In this document: piece after piece, positions 1 through 12,540 of the stretch | How the letters are laid out: every line of letters starts with the position of its first letter | Numbering within the stretch: the first letter of the stretch is position 1 | Assembly (NCBI GenBank): GCA_902784165.1 | Contig: CACZTL010000011.1 | Coordinates: 1 to 35,172, forward strand | Reading direction: 5' to 3' | DNA length: 35,172 nucleotides | Source of the DNA: an uncultured Lachnospiraceae bacterium | GTDB taxonomy: Bacteria > Bacillota > Clostridia > Lachnospirales > Lachnospiraceae | Notes under the pieces: model-generated | What the model was told of the DNA's origin: nothing | The model's database searches: none | The model's input: the letters and a program-made list of their open reading frames with translations, nothing else | Made by a program: the position numbers and the translations under genes

Positions 1-2225
1 CATGCATAAACCGGATCGTCCCAGTCATGAGCATTCTCGTCTATAGGAATCGTTTCCGTCCTCGTATGGGAAGGATCATGTTTGCACGTGTATGTCTTCT
101 CCCCTTCCTCGGTACAGGTAGGTTCCTTAGTCACCTTACCTTCATCCCAGTCATGGGCATCCTCGTCTATGGGAATCGTTTCCGTGTAAGAATGCGAAGC
201 ATCATTTGCACAGGTATAGGTCATTTCACCCTCTTCACTACAAGTAGGCTCCTTCGTCACCACCCCGCGCTTCCATGTGTGGTTATCTGGATCCTTAAGG
301 ATAGTTTCCGTCCTCGTATGGGAAGAATCATGTTTGCACGTGTATGTCTTCACTCCTTCCTCAGTACAGGTAGCTTCCTTAGTCACCTTGCCTTCATCCC
401 AGTCATGCCCTGTAGCCGGGATAGTTATATTTTCACGGCTCAGCTCCTCATTGCAAATGGTGCAATAAACAACCTCATCAAAAGAACCTGGCTTCTCGCA
501 AGTAGGTTCCACCCTGTTTTCCTCTAACCTTTCACTCTCTTTATGCCCGGTAGCCGGCGTCTTCAGAGCAACCCTCGTGTCCGTGTGCTCCTTGCCGTCT
601 ATGCTCTTATCAGCAGTGAGTGTAGCCGTAAATGTGGTGAAGCCCTCTTTCGTGCACTCCGGCTGAGTAACTTTCTTAGTCAGTGCAGCATCCTGATATT
701 TTTCGTGATATAAAACCCTTGAGCATACGAAATGACCGGCTGCCACCTCGTAGCCCTCGTCCTCCGAGCCGCTCCAGACCATCTCCTTGAAGGCGTAGTC
801 ATGATTCTCCTCTTCAACAACAGATATGTAAATGCCGCCTCCGGCTTCCACATCAAGATAATACCCGGTCTTATCCTCCTCTAAAGGAGTCGAGCCGTTA
901 TAAGGCACATATTTTTTGCATTCATCTCCTGTATCCGCAAGAGTGAACCTAAGCCTTTCACCCTGATGGGCAACAGAGTATCCGAATAAGTCAGTCTCAA
1001 GAGGCTCTCCGCCAGCGCGGGTTATCGTACAAAAATCCTCCTGCCCTTCCTTTAACTTAACGATATAATTTGTCTTTTCTGCAAATGTGCAGTCATCAAA
1101 CATCTCACCCCCGGCAGTTATCCTCCATACGGTAAGTTCTGTATTGTCCCTGACATCTGCATGATAAAGACCTGTAATGCCGTTTCTGGCTGCGTTTAAT
1201 GTGCCCGTGATAAGAATAGCCGATCGCTCGCTACCATCTGCCAGAAAAACACCATCCGATCCGGCAGAGGTAACATCGCCATATACCAGATATTTACCTG
1301 CCTGACCTGCTTGTATCCCGACACCTCTTGCGTAAATGTCACCATTTACATTTACCATAACGAAATCACCGTTGCCGCCGCTGCCGCCTCCGGCGTAAAT
1401 GCCGCAACCGTCTGTTGACTTCAGGCTTCCTGTTTCCGCTGCTGCTAAGCTTCCGCCGTAGGCACTTATATTCAGGGCATGATTCCCTGAACTTATATTT
1501 CCTGCTAAAACGGCAGTCATACTGTCATAAGATGCCCTAACGTTAAGACCGATTGCTTTTTCGGAGCTGACATCGCCGAGCTTTGCATTCATAAAACCGC
1601 CGTGTTCGGACGAAACTTTATTCCACCCCTTAGCGTTCACGTTTCCCGTGGTGATCGTCGCTCTTGCGTTCTCTCCCCATGCTACCGCATCTATTCCGAC
1701 ATCTGCAGATGTGACATCCTTTACCGTCACAGTCAGATCCCCATCGGATGCTGCGCTCGCCTGCAATCCGTAGTTGGAGCCGCCTAAATCACCCTCTACG
1801 GTATTTGTGATATTTCCTGCCGTCACCGAAACGCCTCCGGCGTTTGCACGTGTGTAAAGTCCCTTTACATACCCTCTGCCGCCGATCTCCACATCGCCTG
1901 TGTAAGCGTCTATGACACCCCTGCTTTTGGAGTAAAATGCGGCTCCCATGCCATAGCCCGTCGCCGTGGCTCTCACATCCCCCGCGTCTATCGTGGCTAC
2001 GTAGCCGTTTGCTGCATTTGCACCCAGTCCATAGCCATTTTCGGTTGTGATGCTTCTTCCGTCGCTAAGATCCGCATTCTCATTCTCCGCATGAACCTCC
2101 ACCTCAAACTCATTCCCGTCCACCTTAGCCTGAGCCGTAACCGGCAGCCCCAGGGACACAACAAGAGCCACCGCCGTCGTGGCTGCTCCGGCTCCGCGCC
2201 GCAGCCACTTTCTCTTTCCTGACAT
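1..2225 (-). CDS. Secreted cell-surface protein with HDW/Cys repeats (3' end outside window)
   Basis: An open frame with no stop runs from an ATG at 2225 (GGAGG 10 nt upstream) to the left edge, at least 741 codons. Residues 1-33 form a signal peptide: basic MSGKRKWLRR, a hydrophobic stretch, then an AQA cleavage site. Residues about 34-400 are rich in Gly, Asp, Asn, Ala and Val with repeated GDV/GNI turns, which suggests a beta-helix or similar stacked fold (inference). From about residue 500 there are tandem modules of about 40 residues, with VTKEPTC, TYTC, SHT and AHDWDEG elements plus a CTICNEELSRE variant. Such modules are common in clostridial surface proteins. No enzyme motif is visible and the cell-wall anchor, if any, lies outside the window. 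Its promoter faces a LytTR-type operator. Function unknown; likely adhesion or surface display. Confidence 0.85.
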   Translation of the reverse strand, partial: MSGKRKWLRRGAGAATTAVALVVSLGLPVTAQAKVDGNEFEVEVHAENENADLSDGRSITTENGYGLGANAANGYVATIDAGDVRATATGYGMGAAFYSKSRGVIDAYTGDVEIGGRGYVKGLYTRANAGGVSVTAGNITNTVEGDLGGSNYGLQASAASDGDLTVTVKDVTSADVGIDAVAWGENARATITTGNVNAKGWNKVSSEHGGFMNAKLGDVSSEKAIGLNVRASYDSMTAVLAGNISSGNHALNISAYGGSLAAAETGSLKSTDGCGIYAGGGSGGNGDFVMVNVNGDIYARGVGIQAGQAGKYLVYGDVTSAGSDGVFLADGSERSAILITGTLNAARNGITGLYHADVRDNTELTVWRITAGGEMFDDCTFAEKTNYIVKLKEGQEDFCTITRAGGEPLETDLFGYSVAHQGERLRFTLADTGDECKKYVPYNGSTPLEEDKTGYYLDVEAGGGIYISVVEEENHDYAFKEMVWSGSEDEGYEVAAGHFVCSRVLYHEKYQDAALTKKVTQPECTKEGFTTFTATLTADKSIDGKEHTDTRVALKTPATGHKESERLEENRVEPTCEKPGSFDEVVYCTICNEELSRENITIPATGHDWDEGKVTKEATCTEEGVKTYTCKHDSSHTRTETILKDPDNHTWKRGVVTKEPTCSEEGEMTYTCANDASHSYTETIPIDEDAHDWDEGKVTKEPTCTEEGEKTYTCKHDPSHTRTETIPIDENAHDWDDPVYA

Positions 2226-2448
2226 AGATCATACACCTCCTGTTTTCTATCGGATTTTATTCCGAAATAATAATCTGTTCTGACGCTGCCAACGTTTTTT
2301 AGGTTACTAACCAGTACTAACACAAATAACGTTGTTCGGTCAGAATACATTTGCACCCATATAATACCCTTCCGGTGCCATGAGCGCTTGGTCAGACCTA
2401 CGTGCATCTTATCAAAACACACATATCAGGCGCCCTGCCCACACTGTG

Positions 2449-2477
2449 ATTTTACTCCCTGTATATGCTCACAACAA
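2449..2477 (-). promoter_or_regulatory. Promoter of the surface protein gene
   Basis: On the minus strand TTGTTG (2477-2472), a 17-bp spacer and TAAAAT (2454-2449). Transcription from here would give a leader of about 215 nt before the ATG at 2225. The -35 lies 12 bp from a pair of direct repeats, as in the opposite promoter. Confidence 0.55.
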
Positions 2478-2489
2478 TAGATTTGGAAC

Positions 2490-2518
2490 AGGCGGTATAT
2501 ATTCGGTCGCAAGCGGTA
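2490..2518 (-). promoter_or_regulatory. Putative LytTR-type operator, minus-facing pair
   Basis: Two direct repeats read TACCGCTT (2518-2511) and TACCGCCT (2497-2490) on the minus strand, exactly 21 bp apart. LytTR regulators typically bind two direct repeats spaced about two helical turns just upstream of a -35 box. The downstream edge is 12 bp from the TTGTTG -35. Binding is inferred, not shown. Confidence 0.55.
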
Positions 2519-2577
2519 AATGTGATATCAGCAAGGGACGAAACACCTTTTGACCCTTGTATCATTTGATAGTATCC

Positions 2578-2607
2578 TACCGCTTAATCCTTATTTCTGA
2601 CCGCTTA
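2578..2607 (+). promoter_or_regulatory. Putative LytTR-type operator, plus-facing pair
   Basis: ACCGCTTA occurs at 2579-2586 and again at 2600-2607, a 21-bp period, ending 11 bp before the TTGAGA -35 at 2619. It is the mirror image of the pair at 2490-2518. The adjacent LytTR gene makes autoregulation likely. Confidence 0.6.
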
Positions 2608-2618
2608 CGCCAGGGTTA

Positions 2619-2647
2619 TTGAGAGGGGTTTTTTCGACGTATATAAT
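2619..2647 (+). promoter_or_regulatory. Promoter of the small membrane protein/LytTR/DUF3021 operon
   Basis: TTGAGA (2619-2624), a 17-bp spacer and a perfect TATAAT (2642-2647). It lies about 60 bp upstream of the first start codon at 2710 and directly follows the direct repeats. Confidence 0.7.
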
Positions 2648-2709: not shown

Positions 2710-2868
2710 ATGAACACTAAAATCTTAATACCGATAATAAGTATGGCTTCCGTAGCCGTGATGATCATATGGGGGCAGTTAAGCTCCTATCAGTACAGCT
2801 GGATAGCCGTTATGATAGGCGGTATAGTTGTTGCCGCCCTTGCGATAATCAATAAAAACAAAAGATGA
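2710..2868 (+). CDS. Small two-helix membrane protein
   Basis: This 52-residue protein starts at ATG 2710 after a clear GGAGG. The sequence is almost wholly hydrophobic: one helix at about residues 4-21 and a second at about 30-47, then a basic NKNKR tail. It resembles no enzyme family I can name. It is the first gene after a strong promoter and lies 38 bp upstream of the LytTR regulator, so it is very likely co-transcribed with the LytTR and DUF3021 genes. A role as a third, membrane-bound part of that regulatory module is possible but unproven. It falls below the usual length cut-off of gene callers. Confidence 0.65.
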   Translation: MNTKILIPIISMASVAVMIIWGQLSSYQYSWIAVMIGGIVVAALAIINKNKR

Positions 2869-2906: not shown

Positions 2907-3365
2907 ATGAAAAAAGTAAATGTGGAATTCAGACCGGATCCGAAGCGTCCGGACATAGGCGTGACATTTACAGCATCAGAAAAGGATGATGAGGTGGACG
3001 CGCTTATGAAGAGGGTCAGTGATCCCCTCGATGATACTCTTACGGTTTTTGACAGCAGAAATACGGCAACTCTTTTGTCAGAGGAGGATATAATCAGCAT
3101 ATCCTCCGACAATAAAAAGCTTAAGATAATCGCTGAAAACGGCGAATACGAATTAAAAAAGCCCCTTCGTGATATGGAGAAGCAGCTTCATCCTGTTGCA
3201 TTTTTAAAAATTTCACGCTATGAAATCATAAATCTCGGAAAGGTGTCGAAGTTTGATTTTTCCGTAACCGGCACCTTTCGTATAGTTATGAAAAACGGTA
3301 TGGTTACATGGGCGTCAAGAAGACTTATACCTGAAATAAAGAAAAGACTGCAGGGAAAGGAGTGA
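2907..3365 (+). CDS. LytTR-domain DNA-binding regulator
   Basis: A 152-residue protein with a divergent N-terminal part (1-50) and a LytTR DNA-binding domain at about 55-150. The diagnostic LytTR pattern is present: KISRYEIINLGKV, followed by a strand-rich stretch, KNGMVTWASRRLIPEIKKRL. There is no response-regulator receiver domain. Stand-alone LytTR proteins encoded next to a membrane protein form the so-called LytTR regulatory systems, in which the membrane partner restrains the regulator. The stop overlaps the next gene's start region. The likely target is the pair of mirrored repeat sites at 2490-2607, controlling its own operon and the divergent surface protein. Family assignment is firm; targets are inferred. 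Confidence 0.85.
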   Translation: MKKVNVEFRPDPKRPDIGVTFTASEKDDEVDALMKRVSDPLDDTLTVFDSRNTATLLSEEDIISISSDNKKLKIIAENGEYELKKPLRDMEKQLHPVAFLKISRYEIINLGKVSKFDFSVTGTFRIVMKNGMVTWASRRLIPEIKKRLQGKE

Positions 3366-3370
3366 TGAAA

Positions 3371-3817
3371 ATGATAGCGAATACAATAAAACGGGCTGTC
3401 ATGGGATATGTGCTGGGAATGGCTGTAGGCGTGGTCATAACCCTGATAACAGGATATGCGGGTACGGGAACTGCGGTGTATTTTGCGCCGGAGCTTAAAG
3501 AGGCCATGGGGAGTGAACTGGGGGCGCTTACTGCACAGGTGCTGCTCTCCGGACTTTTTGGAGCCATCTGCTTTGCCTGCATGGGTTTCCATGAGATGGA
3601 AAGGCTTGGACTTTTGGGATCCTGCCTGCTGCATTACGCCAGCATCATGGCTTCCTTCTTCCCTATCGCAATATTCCTGCACTGGTTTGAACTTGATCCC
3701 CTTTCCATAGGGATAATGGTAACTGTTATGACGGCGGGATATTTTATCATATGGGTGATCATGTACTTAAGGTACAAAGCTGAGGTGCGCAAGCTAAATG
3801 AACTGCTGGCAGCATAA
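3371..3817 (+). CDS. DUF3021 family membrane protein
   Basis: This hydrophobic protein of about 148 residues has four predicted membrane helices, around residues 8-28, 55-76, 84-108 and 116-140, and a basic C-terminal tail (LRYKAEVRKLNELLAA). Size, topology and position directly after a LytTR gene match the DUF3021 family. ATG 3371 was chosen because it is 8 nt from GGAG (3359-3362); an in-frame GTG at 3362 and ATG at 3365 are too close to that site. The gene overlaps or abuts the LytTR stop, so the two are translationally coupled. In related systems the membrane partner antagonises the LytTR regulator; this is inferred here. Confidence 0.8.
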   Translation: MIANTIKRAVMGYVLGMAVGVVITLITGYAGTGTAVYFAPELKEAMGSELGALTAQVLLSGLFGAICFACMGFHEMERLGLLGSCLLHYASIMASFFPIAIFLHWFELDPLSIGIMVTVMTAGYFIIWVIMYLRYKAEVRKLNELLAA

Positions 3818-3848
3818 AAAAAGCTGACTGTGTAAAGTCAGCTTTTTT
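3818..3848 (+). terminator. Rho-independent terminator after the DUF3021 gene
   Basis: AAGCTGACT and AGTCAGCTT form a stem around the loop GTGTAA, followed by seven T. It directly follows the DUF3021 stop codon and ends the LytTR operon. Confidence 0.9.
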
Positions 3849-3940
3849 TGTACCGCTTATTTTCAGTTAGAACGCTCGCCAGGATCCCCTTTTTTATCCT
3901 TTTGACAAACACCTACAGATCGTTCATTTCCTCATCTTTA

Positions 3941-10962: not shown

Positions 10963-12276
10963 TCACTCCCCGAAAATCTTAACCTCTCCACCTGCCAGTA
11001 TCGCATTCATATTCCTTACAGAGCAGAAATTACCGCACATACTGCAGGAGTCCTCTTTCTCAGGAGCAGCGGAATCCCTGTAGCGCCTTGCCTTTTCCGG
11101 ATCGATAGCTATCTCAAACTGCTTATCCCAGTCAAGCACCTGCCTTGCGTCGCCCATGTCATCGTCCGGATCCGTCGCATGAGGCAGCCCCTTGGCTATA
11201 TCTGCCGCATGGGCCGCTATCTTAGATGCCATAATGCCCTCCTTTACATCATCAAGATCAGGAAGTCTTAAATGCTCTGCCGGCGTCACATAACACAGGA
11301 AAGAAGCCCCGTGCCATGCAGCCATAGCTCCTCCTATAGCCGACGTGATATGATCATATCCGGGAGCAATATCGGTCACCAGCGGACCCAGCACATAAAA
11401 AGGCGCGCCGTGGCAAAGAGTCTTTTGAATCTCCATATTGGCTGCTATCTGATTCATAGGCATATGACCCGGCCCCTCTATCATAACCTGCACATCCTTT
11501 TCCCATGCCCTGAGCGTAAGCTCACCGAGCGTCATAAGCTCTTCGATCTGAGCTGCATCGGACGCATCCGCAATACAGCCCGGTCTGCAGGCGTCACCAA
11601 GACTGATAGTCACATCGTATTCTCTGCAAATATCAAGAAGCTCGTCATAATACTCAAAGAAGGGATTCTCGTTTCCGGTCATCTCCATCCACGCATAAAT
11701 GATAGATCCGCCTCTTGATACGATATTCATCTTTCGCTTATTACGCTTGAATTTTGCAGCTGTTTCACGATTGATACCGCAGTGGATCGTAAGAAAATCC
11801 ACTCCATCCTCAGCATGTAGTCTTACGACGTCAAGCCATTCCTTCGCGGTAATCTTTTTTAATTCTTTTTTATAGTAAACGAGCGCATCATATATAGGCA
11901 CCGTGCCAAGCATAGCAGGACACTTTGACGCTATATGACGTCTGAATGAACTTGTATCACCACAGGAGCTCAAGTCCATAATAGCCTCTGCTCCGTACTT
12001 CACCGCCATATCCACCTTCTGATACTCTACATTCCAATCCTCTGCATCACGTGAAGCGCCGAGATTCACATTTATCTTAGTAGTCAGCGCATGCCCGATT
12101 CCGTTAGGATCCAGAGCGGTATGATTTTTATTAGCCGGGATGATTACATGACCTTTTGCGATAAGGTTCTTAAGCTTTTCAGGATCCATATGCTCCTTAG
12201 CTGCCACCTTCTCCATCTCCGGAGTGATGATACCCAGCTTGGCAGCGTGCATCTGCGTTGTATATTCTCTTTCCAT
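10963..12276 (-). CDS. thiC: Phosphomethylpyrimidine synthase ThiC
   Basis: A 437-residue radical SAM enzyme that converts aminoimidazole ribotide to HMP phosphate. The unusual C-terminal cluster motif CSMCGNFCS (C-X2-C-X4-C) is present, as are ThiC signatures [23 protein letters not shown] and [11 protein letters not shown]. The length matches clostridial ThiC, which lacks the long N-terminal extension of proteobacterial forms. ATG 12276 follows AAGGAGT. It is the first gene after the TPP riboswitch and its terminator, with a 72-bp palindrome between terminator and ribosome binding site. Confidence 0.97.
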
Positions 12277-12424: not shown

Positions 12425-12443
12425 GTATATTAAAACAGTTTAT

Positions 12444-12525
12444 GACTCCCTACGCCGGCATTATCCGAATCAGGTAAAGGGTCGAAGTTGATAACTTCCT
12501 CTCAGCCTGCACACAAGCTCCCCTG
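12444..12525 (-). ncRNA. TPP riboswitch (THI-box aptamer)
   Basis: Minus strand shows the conserved THI-box order: GGGGAGC, GCTGAGAGG, a variable hairpin (AAGTTATCAACTT), GACCCTTTACCTGAT, GGATAATGCCGGCGTAGGGA. These are the pyrimidine- and pyrophosphate-binding elements. It controls thiC-thiD-thiS-thiG-thiH by termination at the hairpin that follows. Confidence 0.96.
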
Positions 12526-12540
12526 TATTTATTTTTGTAC

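Follow-up and report, generated by a model that had tools for sequence, protein, structure and literature searches.

Mirrored LytTR operators between a surface-protein gene and a LytTR-DUF3021 operon: a probable LytTR Regulatory System variant with an envelope-protein output

The locus described here, from an uncultured Lachnospiraceae bacterium, carries two LytTR-type operators placed back to back between a LytTR-DUF3021 operon and a divergent gene for a large surface protein. It is probably a variant of the LytTR Regulatory System (LRS) with an envelope-protein output, in which one regulator would drive both its own operon and the surface-protein gene. The case for such a variant is built on the paired operators, the LRS gene set, recurrence within a LytTR clade, the secreted neighbours of that clade, and the layout of one related locus, L112. 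Directly observed are the sites in the window (the whole stretch of 35,172 nucleotides that was analysed), how they are spaced and how rare they are, which genes accompany them, and that they recur in relatives. Control of both transcription units by one regulator had been proposed in an earlier sequence-only reading of this DNA, and LRS geometry, gene set, and relatives now lend that proposal support.

Operators, promoters, and genes of the locus

The intergenic region (2226-2709) contains two pairs of direct repeats on opposite strands, each with a 21-bp period (families D3 and D9 of the repeat listing). The right operator (2579-2608, plus strand) is aimed at the LytTR operon and consists of ACCGCTTAA (2579-2587), a 12-bp spacer, and ACCGCTTAC (2600-2608). 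Exactly 10 bp past it lies the right promoter (2619-2647, plus strand), composed of TTGAGA (2619-2624), 17 bp, and TATAAT (2642-2647), which matches the consensus at 11 of 12 positions and exceeds the threshold of a consensus promoter scan. The left operator (2488-2517, minus strand) is aimed at the surface-protein gene and consists of ACCGCTTGC (2517-2509), a 12-bp spacer, and ACCGCCTGT (2496-2488). It is followed, again after exactly 10 bp, by the left promoter (2449-2477, minus strand) with TTGTTG (2477-2472), 17 bp, and TAAAAT (2454-2449); this promoter is absent from the consensus scan listing, and its -35 box matches at three of six positions. The sequence-only reading had described opposite-facing repeat pairs 21 bp apart, each leading to a -35 box with a -10 box at 17-bp spacing, and all of this holds on both strands, positions included. 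Its distance of 11-12 bp from repeat to -35 was measured from 8-mers and becomes 10 bp when the repeats are taken as 9-mers.

The rightward operon begins with a gene for a 52-aa membrane peptide (2710-2868, plus strand) that has two hydrophobic stretches by eye. The LytTR regulator (2907-3365, plus strand) is a 152-aa protein with a short N-terminal region and a LytTR domain (PF04397, 2.5e-19, 69.7 bits against a cut-off of 22.6), which is its sole Pfam domain; no receiver domain was found in the Pfam search. Its predicted model (pLDDT 81) matches the solved LytTR domains of a B. cereus protein, ComE, and AgrA. Directly downstream is the gene for a DUF3021 membrane protein (3371-3817, plus strand; PF11457, 2e-25, 89.9 bits against a cut-off of 24.7), with an alternative GTG start at 3362. 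The neighbouring LytTR/DUF3021 module named in the sequence-only reading is thereby confirmed, with both proteins above their Pfam cut-offs, and its operon stands, while the peptide as first gene had been overlooked. A probable intrinsic terminator (3823-3849, plus strand; GCTGACT-6-AGTCAGC followed by T7) is visible by eye and does not appear in the terminator scan listing. A lone half-site, ACCGCTTA, lies directly past this terminator at 3852-3859 and has no partner 21 bp on.

The leftward gene (3-2225, minus strand) encodes a surface protein with a signal peptide and, by eye, C-terminal repeats of about 45 aa; 741 aa are seen before the contig edge cuts the gene. The protein has no Pfam family match and no full-length match in 11 genus genomes, where only the C-terminal part, from residue 544 onward, finds a counterpart. 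Its structure prediction has a mean pLDDT of 39, an unusable confidence. The predicted mRNA would have a long leader (2226-2448, minus strand) of about 220 nt, its start site being deduced from the left promoter, with the Shine-Dalgarno sequence AGGAGG. The segment 2223-2442 of the minus strand folds much better than shuffled sequence (z -3.78, with 1 of 200 shuffles equally good), and the fold model pairs the Shine-Dalgarno region with the 5' part of the segment. Such a modelled fold is a possible second layer of control.

The pattern ACCGCYT-N13/14-ACCGCYT, which had been fitted to the observation, has two matches in the organism's own 1.6-Mb assembly (89% complete), both at this locus, and none in a backwards control. 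With three mismatches allowed, the window contains three matches against 0.78 expected, and 3 of 100 shuffles reach three; taken alone, this loose pattern is weak evidence against chance. An independent matrix was made from 19 of the 25 published LRS site-pair rows (PMC6193735, Tables 2 and 3). It ranks the right operator first in the window at 22.8 bits and the left operator second at 16.9 bits, with the next best site at 12.4 bits, and in simulated first-order sequence (30 x 35 kb, period 21) it finds three sites of at least 16 bits.

A looser pattern gives three matches in the own genome, namely both operators and G000:C99:5926. A wider regulon through this motif in that genome was rejected, the sole extra match lying inside and antisense to a lipoprotein-like ORF. 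Pattern matches in three genus sequences (L045, L046, and L047) were likewise set aside as operators because by eye they appear to fall within coding sequence, a judgement made on 501 bases each of L045 and L046 and 3000 bases of L047, with no ORF listing at hand.

Relation to known LytTR systems

The LRS of Streptococcus mutans (among them HdrRM, BrsRM, and SMU_433/434) likewise pair a receiver-less LytTR protein with a DUF3021 or DUF2154 membrane protein, and likewise carry 9-bp direct repeats with a 12-bp spacer, about 10 bp from the -35 box, ahead of the regulator operon (accessible text of PMC6193735). Published LRS sites in general have repeats of 9 bp; in most of them the spacer is 12 bp and the -35 box lies 10 bp away (PMC6193735, Tables 2 and 3). 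The window contains a receiver-less LytTR, a downstream DUF3021 partner, and 9-12-9 repeats 10 bp before the operon -35; judged by these sequence features, the operon is an LRS. The LytTR-type geometry claimed by the sequence-only reading is borne out, since both strands match the published LRS spacing (PMC6193735), while the published LRS class and the inhibitor role expected of DUF3021 had escaped it.

According to the available sections of PMC6193735, the membrane proteins of S. mutans LRS inhibit their regulators, HdrR binds its repeats and activates its own operon from a site at the position seen here, and the systems cross-regulate one another. For HdrRM, the discussion in PMC13384398, as far as it is accessible, reports that the regulator is held by membrane sequestration. 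LRS are widespread yet characterised in S. mutans only, where bacteriocins, competence, cell death, and linked ABC transporters are the named outputs; for most LRS the natural outputs are described as not established (accessible text of PMC6193735). Compared with these systems, the window adds a mirrored second operator for a divergent surface-protein gene, its operon opens with a gene for a small membrane peptide, and it belongs to a clade whose recurrent partners are secreted or lipoprotein neighbours.

AgrA- and ComE-type regulators share the DNA-binding fold of the window LytTR. They use direct repeats about 21 bp apart and combine a receiver domain with a histidine kinase partner. Assignment of the window protein to this two-component class was rejected: no receiver domain was found in Pfam, and the LytTR gene is flanked by the peptide and DUF3021 genes. 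Another comparable system is SAUSA300_2310/2311 of Staphylococcus aureus, which we take to be the staphylococcal DUF3021-type LRS. Like the window, it has a LytTR regulator with a partner gene and is termed an LRS homologue, and a 2311 mutant emerged from a screen for cross-wall placement of the surface protein SpA (PMC13104630). The accessible text of that paper calls the function of the system largely unknown and mentions no mirrored operator at a neighbouring surface-protein gene (PMC13104630). In the literature searched, in its accessible parts and with most subscription papers outside it, we found nothing that describes LRS operators in mirrored pairs or links an LRS clade to surface proteins. 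The LRS class is known, and the mirrored surface-protein variant appears to be new.

Operators and partner genes in related loci

A scan of GTDB genome contigs with a LytTR alignment yielded 12 related loci (L062-L073) from Lachnospiraceae, Eubacterium, Ruminococcus, and other Clostridia MAGs, several of them from goat or sheep gut; the RUG isolates among them are presumably rumen genomes. A search of 391 class genomes added L111, L112, and a distant LytTR set, which comprises 38 of the 48 rows (10 left out) that remain in the 51-row class listing once the window, L111, and L112 are set apart. Clade membership required a LytTR score above 150 bits with a profile built on 11 member sequences. 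Its 15 loci, window included, form one group with support of 100/99 in a tree of 24 rows, made up of the 15 clade loci and 9 distant ones; 12 distant rows were listed, and three were dropped because a guessed start gave a short protein. In 397 family genomes searched at 1e-35, the LytTR search returned, besides the window, only G1037, a partial clade member whose upstream side is cut off by the contig end. By eye, a secreted protein is lacking on its downstream side, and G1037 is not counted among the 15 clade loci.

A strict scan combined the published-site matrix with -35 and -10 boxes up to 700 bp upstream of LytTR, allowing 8-12 bp to the -35 and 16-18 bp to the -10. It finds operators in 13 of the 15 clade loci, the window included. 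They lie on both strands in five loci (the window, L067, L068, L111, and L112), point only towards LytTR in six, and point only away in two (L062 and L063); two loci (L069 and L072) have none, and a looser scan recovers an operator in L069 as well. In the distant set, 21 of 38 loci have an operator towards LytTR, and none has one pointing away or a mirrored pair. Mirrored operators are thus present in 5/15 clade loci versus 0/38 distant loci (Fisher p 0.001, or p 0.004 with L067 and L068, which come from one MAG, counted once), and in 5/13 versus 0/21 among operator-bearing loci (p 0.005), with the reservation that clade loci are not mutually independent. When the matrix is applied without promoter boxes, opposite-strand matches of 11-13 bits occur upstream in three distant loci (L128, L130, and L138), and all of them fail the promoter test. 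The strict scan chose spacings other than 10/17 in L062, in L063, and at the minus site of L112; by eye 10/17 fits too, with weak -35 boxes. The background of the strict scan is one match in 36,718 bp of reversed control and 16 matches in 567,598 bp outside the tested regions.

These counts bear on whether the repeats could be a product of chance, which we find scarcely credible. Short two-copy repeats are common, several being present in the window listing, and the loose pattern search comes close to the expected number. Against this, the two operators take the first two places in the published-site ranking, the fitted pattern is unique to the locus in 1.6 Mb, and operators recur in nearly the whole clade when the reversed control gives a single match; on matrix ranks, uniqueness, and recurrence, chance was rejected. 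The sequence-only reading had proposed a comparison with relatives that keep the same gene order, and had named loss of the repeats there as one outcome that would count against it. Such loss is not seen: by the strict scan 13 of the 15 clade loci retain an operator, and mirrored operators recur in four loci besides the window. The comparison could not extend to the exact gene pair, since none of the 11 genus genomes has a full-length match to the surface protein.

In L062 and L063, which are the closest relatives, no strict operator points towards LytTR, and the one present points away, with poor -35 boxes; autoregulation is therefore not evident throughout the clade. In the mirrored loci, the distances between operators are 62, 21, 21, 21, and 10 bp, near whole helical turns, so that the sites would share one helix face. 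This regularity is suggestive only, and it speaks for the reading, in our view improbable, that the four half-sites form one unit, by looping or in a four-site complex, with promoters that compete or mutually repress and do not rise together. However, there are only three distinct spacings, two of the loci belong to one MAG, and HdrR acts as an activator from its published site at this position (PMC6193735, accessible text).

The sites might also be bound mainly by another LytTR of the same cell, in which case their control would be cross-talk and not local. The own genome does contain a second LytTR gene, L002 (G000:C79:20092-23379), which by eye lies beside a DUF3021-like partner and a degenerate site of 21-bp period, and the mutual regulation of S. 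mutans LRS sets a precedent (PMC6193735, as accessible). This reading is nevertheless unlikely. By eye the paralogue's own site differs (ACCGTTGAC/GCCGATTAC), and operators of the ACCGCTT/ACCGTTT type go with the close LytTR clade from one family to another.

In 14 of the 15 clade loci the module has a gene for a secreted protein or lipoprotein beside it, versus 5 of 38 distant loci (p 6e-8), or versus 5 of 22 when distant loci are restricted to those with such a neighbour position (p 3e-5). A neighbour is here the gene downstream of DUF3021 or the divergent gene, and signal peptides were called with a crude hydropathy rule, applied to genes of 90 aa or more, with shorter ones admitted only at contig ends. 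Since the rule skips genes under 90 aa, L062 was scored by the lipoprotein behind its 53-aa peptide. Among the five distant positives, L137 and L142 at least look false by eye, and the membrane partners of distant loci were taken with no Pfam check. The partner domains include CUB (the divergent gene of L112, and L069), InlB-type repeats (the downstream gene of L112, L069, and L071), dockerin (L070), and BspA leucine-rich repeats (the second gene in L073). As they vary between loci, the regulator keeps a partner class while the partner itself changes.

The 52-aa peptide has homologues in L062, L111, and L067 (46, 56, and 44% identity), each downstream of an LRS-type operator. In L111 and L067 it is the mirrored operator that faces the peptide gene, and the secreted protein sits downstream; in L062 the peptide gene and the lipoprotein gene share a single operator. 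Mirrored operators therefore face a peptide or a secreted gene depending on the locus, which indicates that operators stay in place while genes swap sides. Strong peptide matches (E below 1e-8) are confined to the window, L062 (G008), and L111 (G957) among 11 genus, 299 family, 392 order, and 391 class genomes. The search of the 299 family genomes returned the window only, and in profile searches of the order and class genomes every further match beyond the window and L111 was weak (E 1e-6 or worse), most of them lying within larger frames. The one clade locus with no recognised secreted neighbour, L066, has three promoters of LRS geometry at -2124, -489, and +937 relative to LytTR, and the promoter at +937 precedes a frame whose start resembles the 52-aa peptide.

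Two further observations concern the gene content of the clade. A small Cys-rich ORF of about 70-107 aa with a GWxHQxWC-like motif lies directly upstream of LytTR in L064-L073, on the stretch that separates the operator from LytTR (e.g. L067:652-879); it is absent from the window, L062, and L063, and the one example tested had no Pfam match. A close LytTR (E below 1e-50) occurs in 2 of 11 genus genomes, and since the neighbouring genes also differ between L062 and the window, the module looks accessory.

The layout of L112 resembles that of the window. A mirrored operator there precedes the gene of a secreted CUB protein of 1417 aa; the second repeat of this operator, ACCGCCTAT, is similar to ACCGCCTGT of the window, and its promoter, TTGTAC-17-TAAAAT by eye, occupies the position of the window's left promoter, TTGTTG-17-TAAAAT. 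Unlike the window, L112 encodes another secreted protein downstream of DUF3021, and no peptide gene was seen there. Several features of the window weigh against joint control: the left site is weaker (16.9 bits) with a poor -35, the leader is long, and the contig ends inside a surface gene that is not common to genus relatives. Apart from the contig end, these would also fit a locus in which the right operator alone works, the left pair is a relic (for example of a divergent peptide or lipoprotein gene as in L062, L063, L067, and L068), and the surface gene is driven from within the leader. We regard a relic as rather unlikely. Decay of the 9-12-9-10-6-17-6 geometry would be expected in a relic, and the left site still has all of it; no consensus promoter is listed on the minus strand between the left operator and the surface-protein gene; and L112 has the same repeat variant and the same -10 before another secreted protein.

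Proposed mechanism and significance

We consider it likely that the locus is a back-to-back-operator LRS in which DUF3021 restrains LytTR and the released LytTR raises both promoters. We infer LytTR binding, activation of both promoters, and the existence of a signal. In the resting state, by analogy with S. mutans, the DUF3021 membrane protein would hold LytTR inactive, perhaps by membrane sequestration. A putative envelope signal would free LytTR, which would then occupy each pair of 9-bp repeats beside its -35 box and aid RNA polymerase at both promoters. To the right, increased expression of the peptide-LytTR-DUF3021 operon would constitute positive feedback; to the left, the large secreted surface protein would be raised from a promoter in the same intergenic region. 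The expected outcome is on/off or graded display of the surface protein, coupled to the level of the regulator.

A broader proposal, which we put forward tentatively and hold to be doubtful at present, is that the clade is a surface-display-dedicated LRS branch of gut Clostridia. Its operators would couple the regulator, the inhibitor, the two-helix peptide, and an interchangeable surface protein as a bistable switch, and DUF3021 would receive feedback from the peptide or from the displayed protein.

The locus is of interest because a probable LRS output, the large surface protein encoded at the same locus, can be named from sequence alone, and because secreted proteins and lipoproteins of varied domains accompany its LytTR clade. 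It also suggests how one might find those surface proteins of rumen and gut Clostridia that are switched and not constitutive. With one regulator, one expected inhibitor, and two operators 62 bp apart, it is a small, self-contained test bed.

Elsewhere in the window, the only Rfam match is a TPP riboswitch at 12430-12534 on the minus strand, upstream of an ORF (10963-12276) that is ThiC-like by eye.
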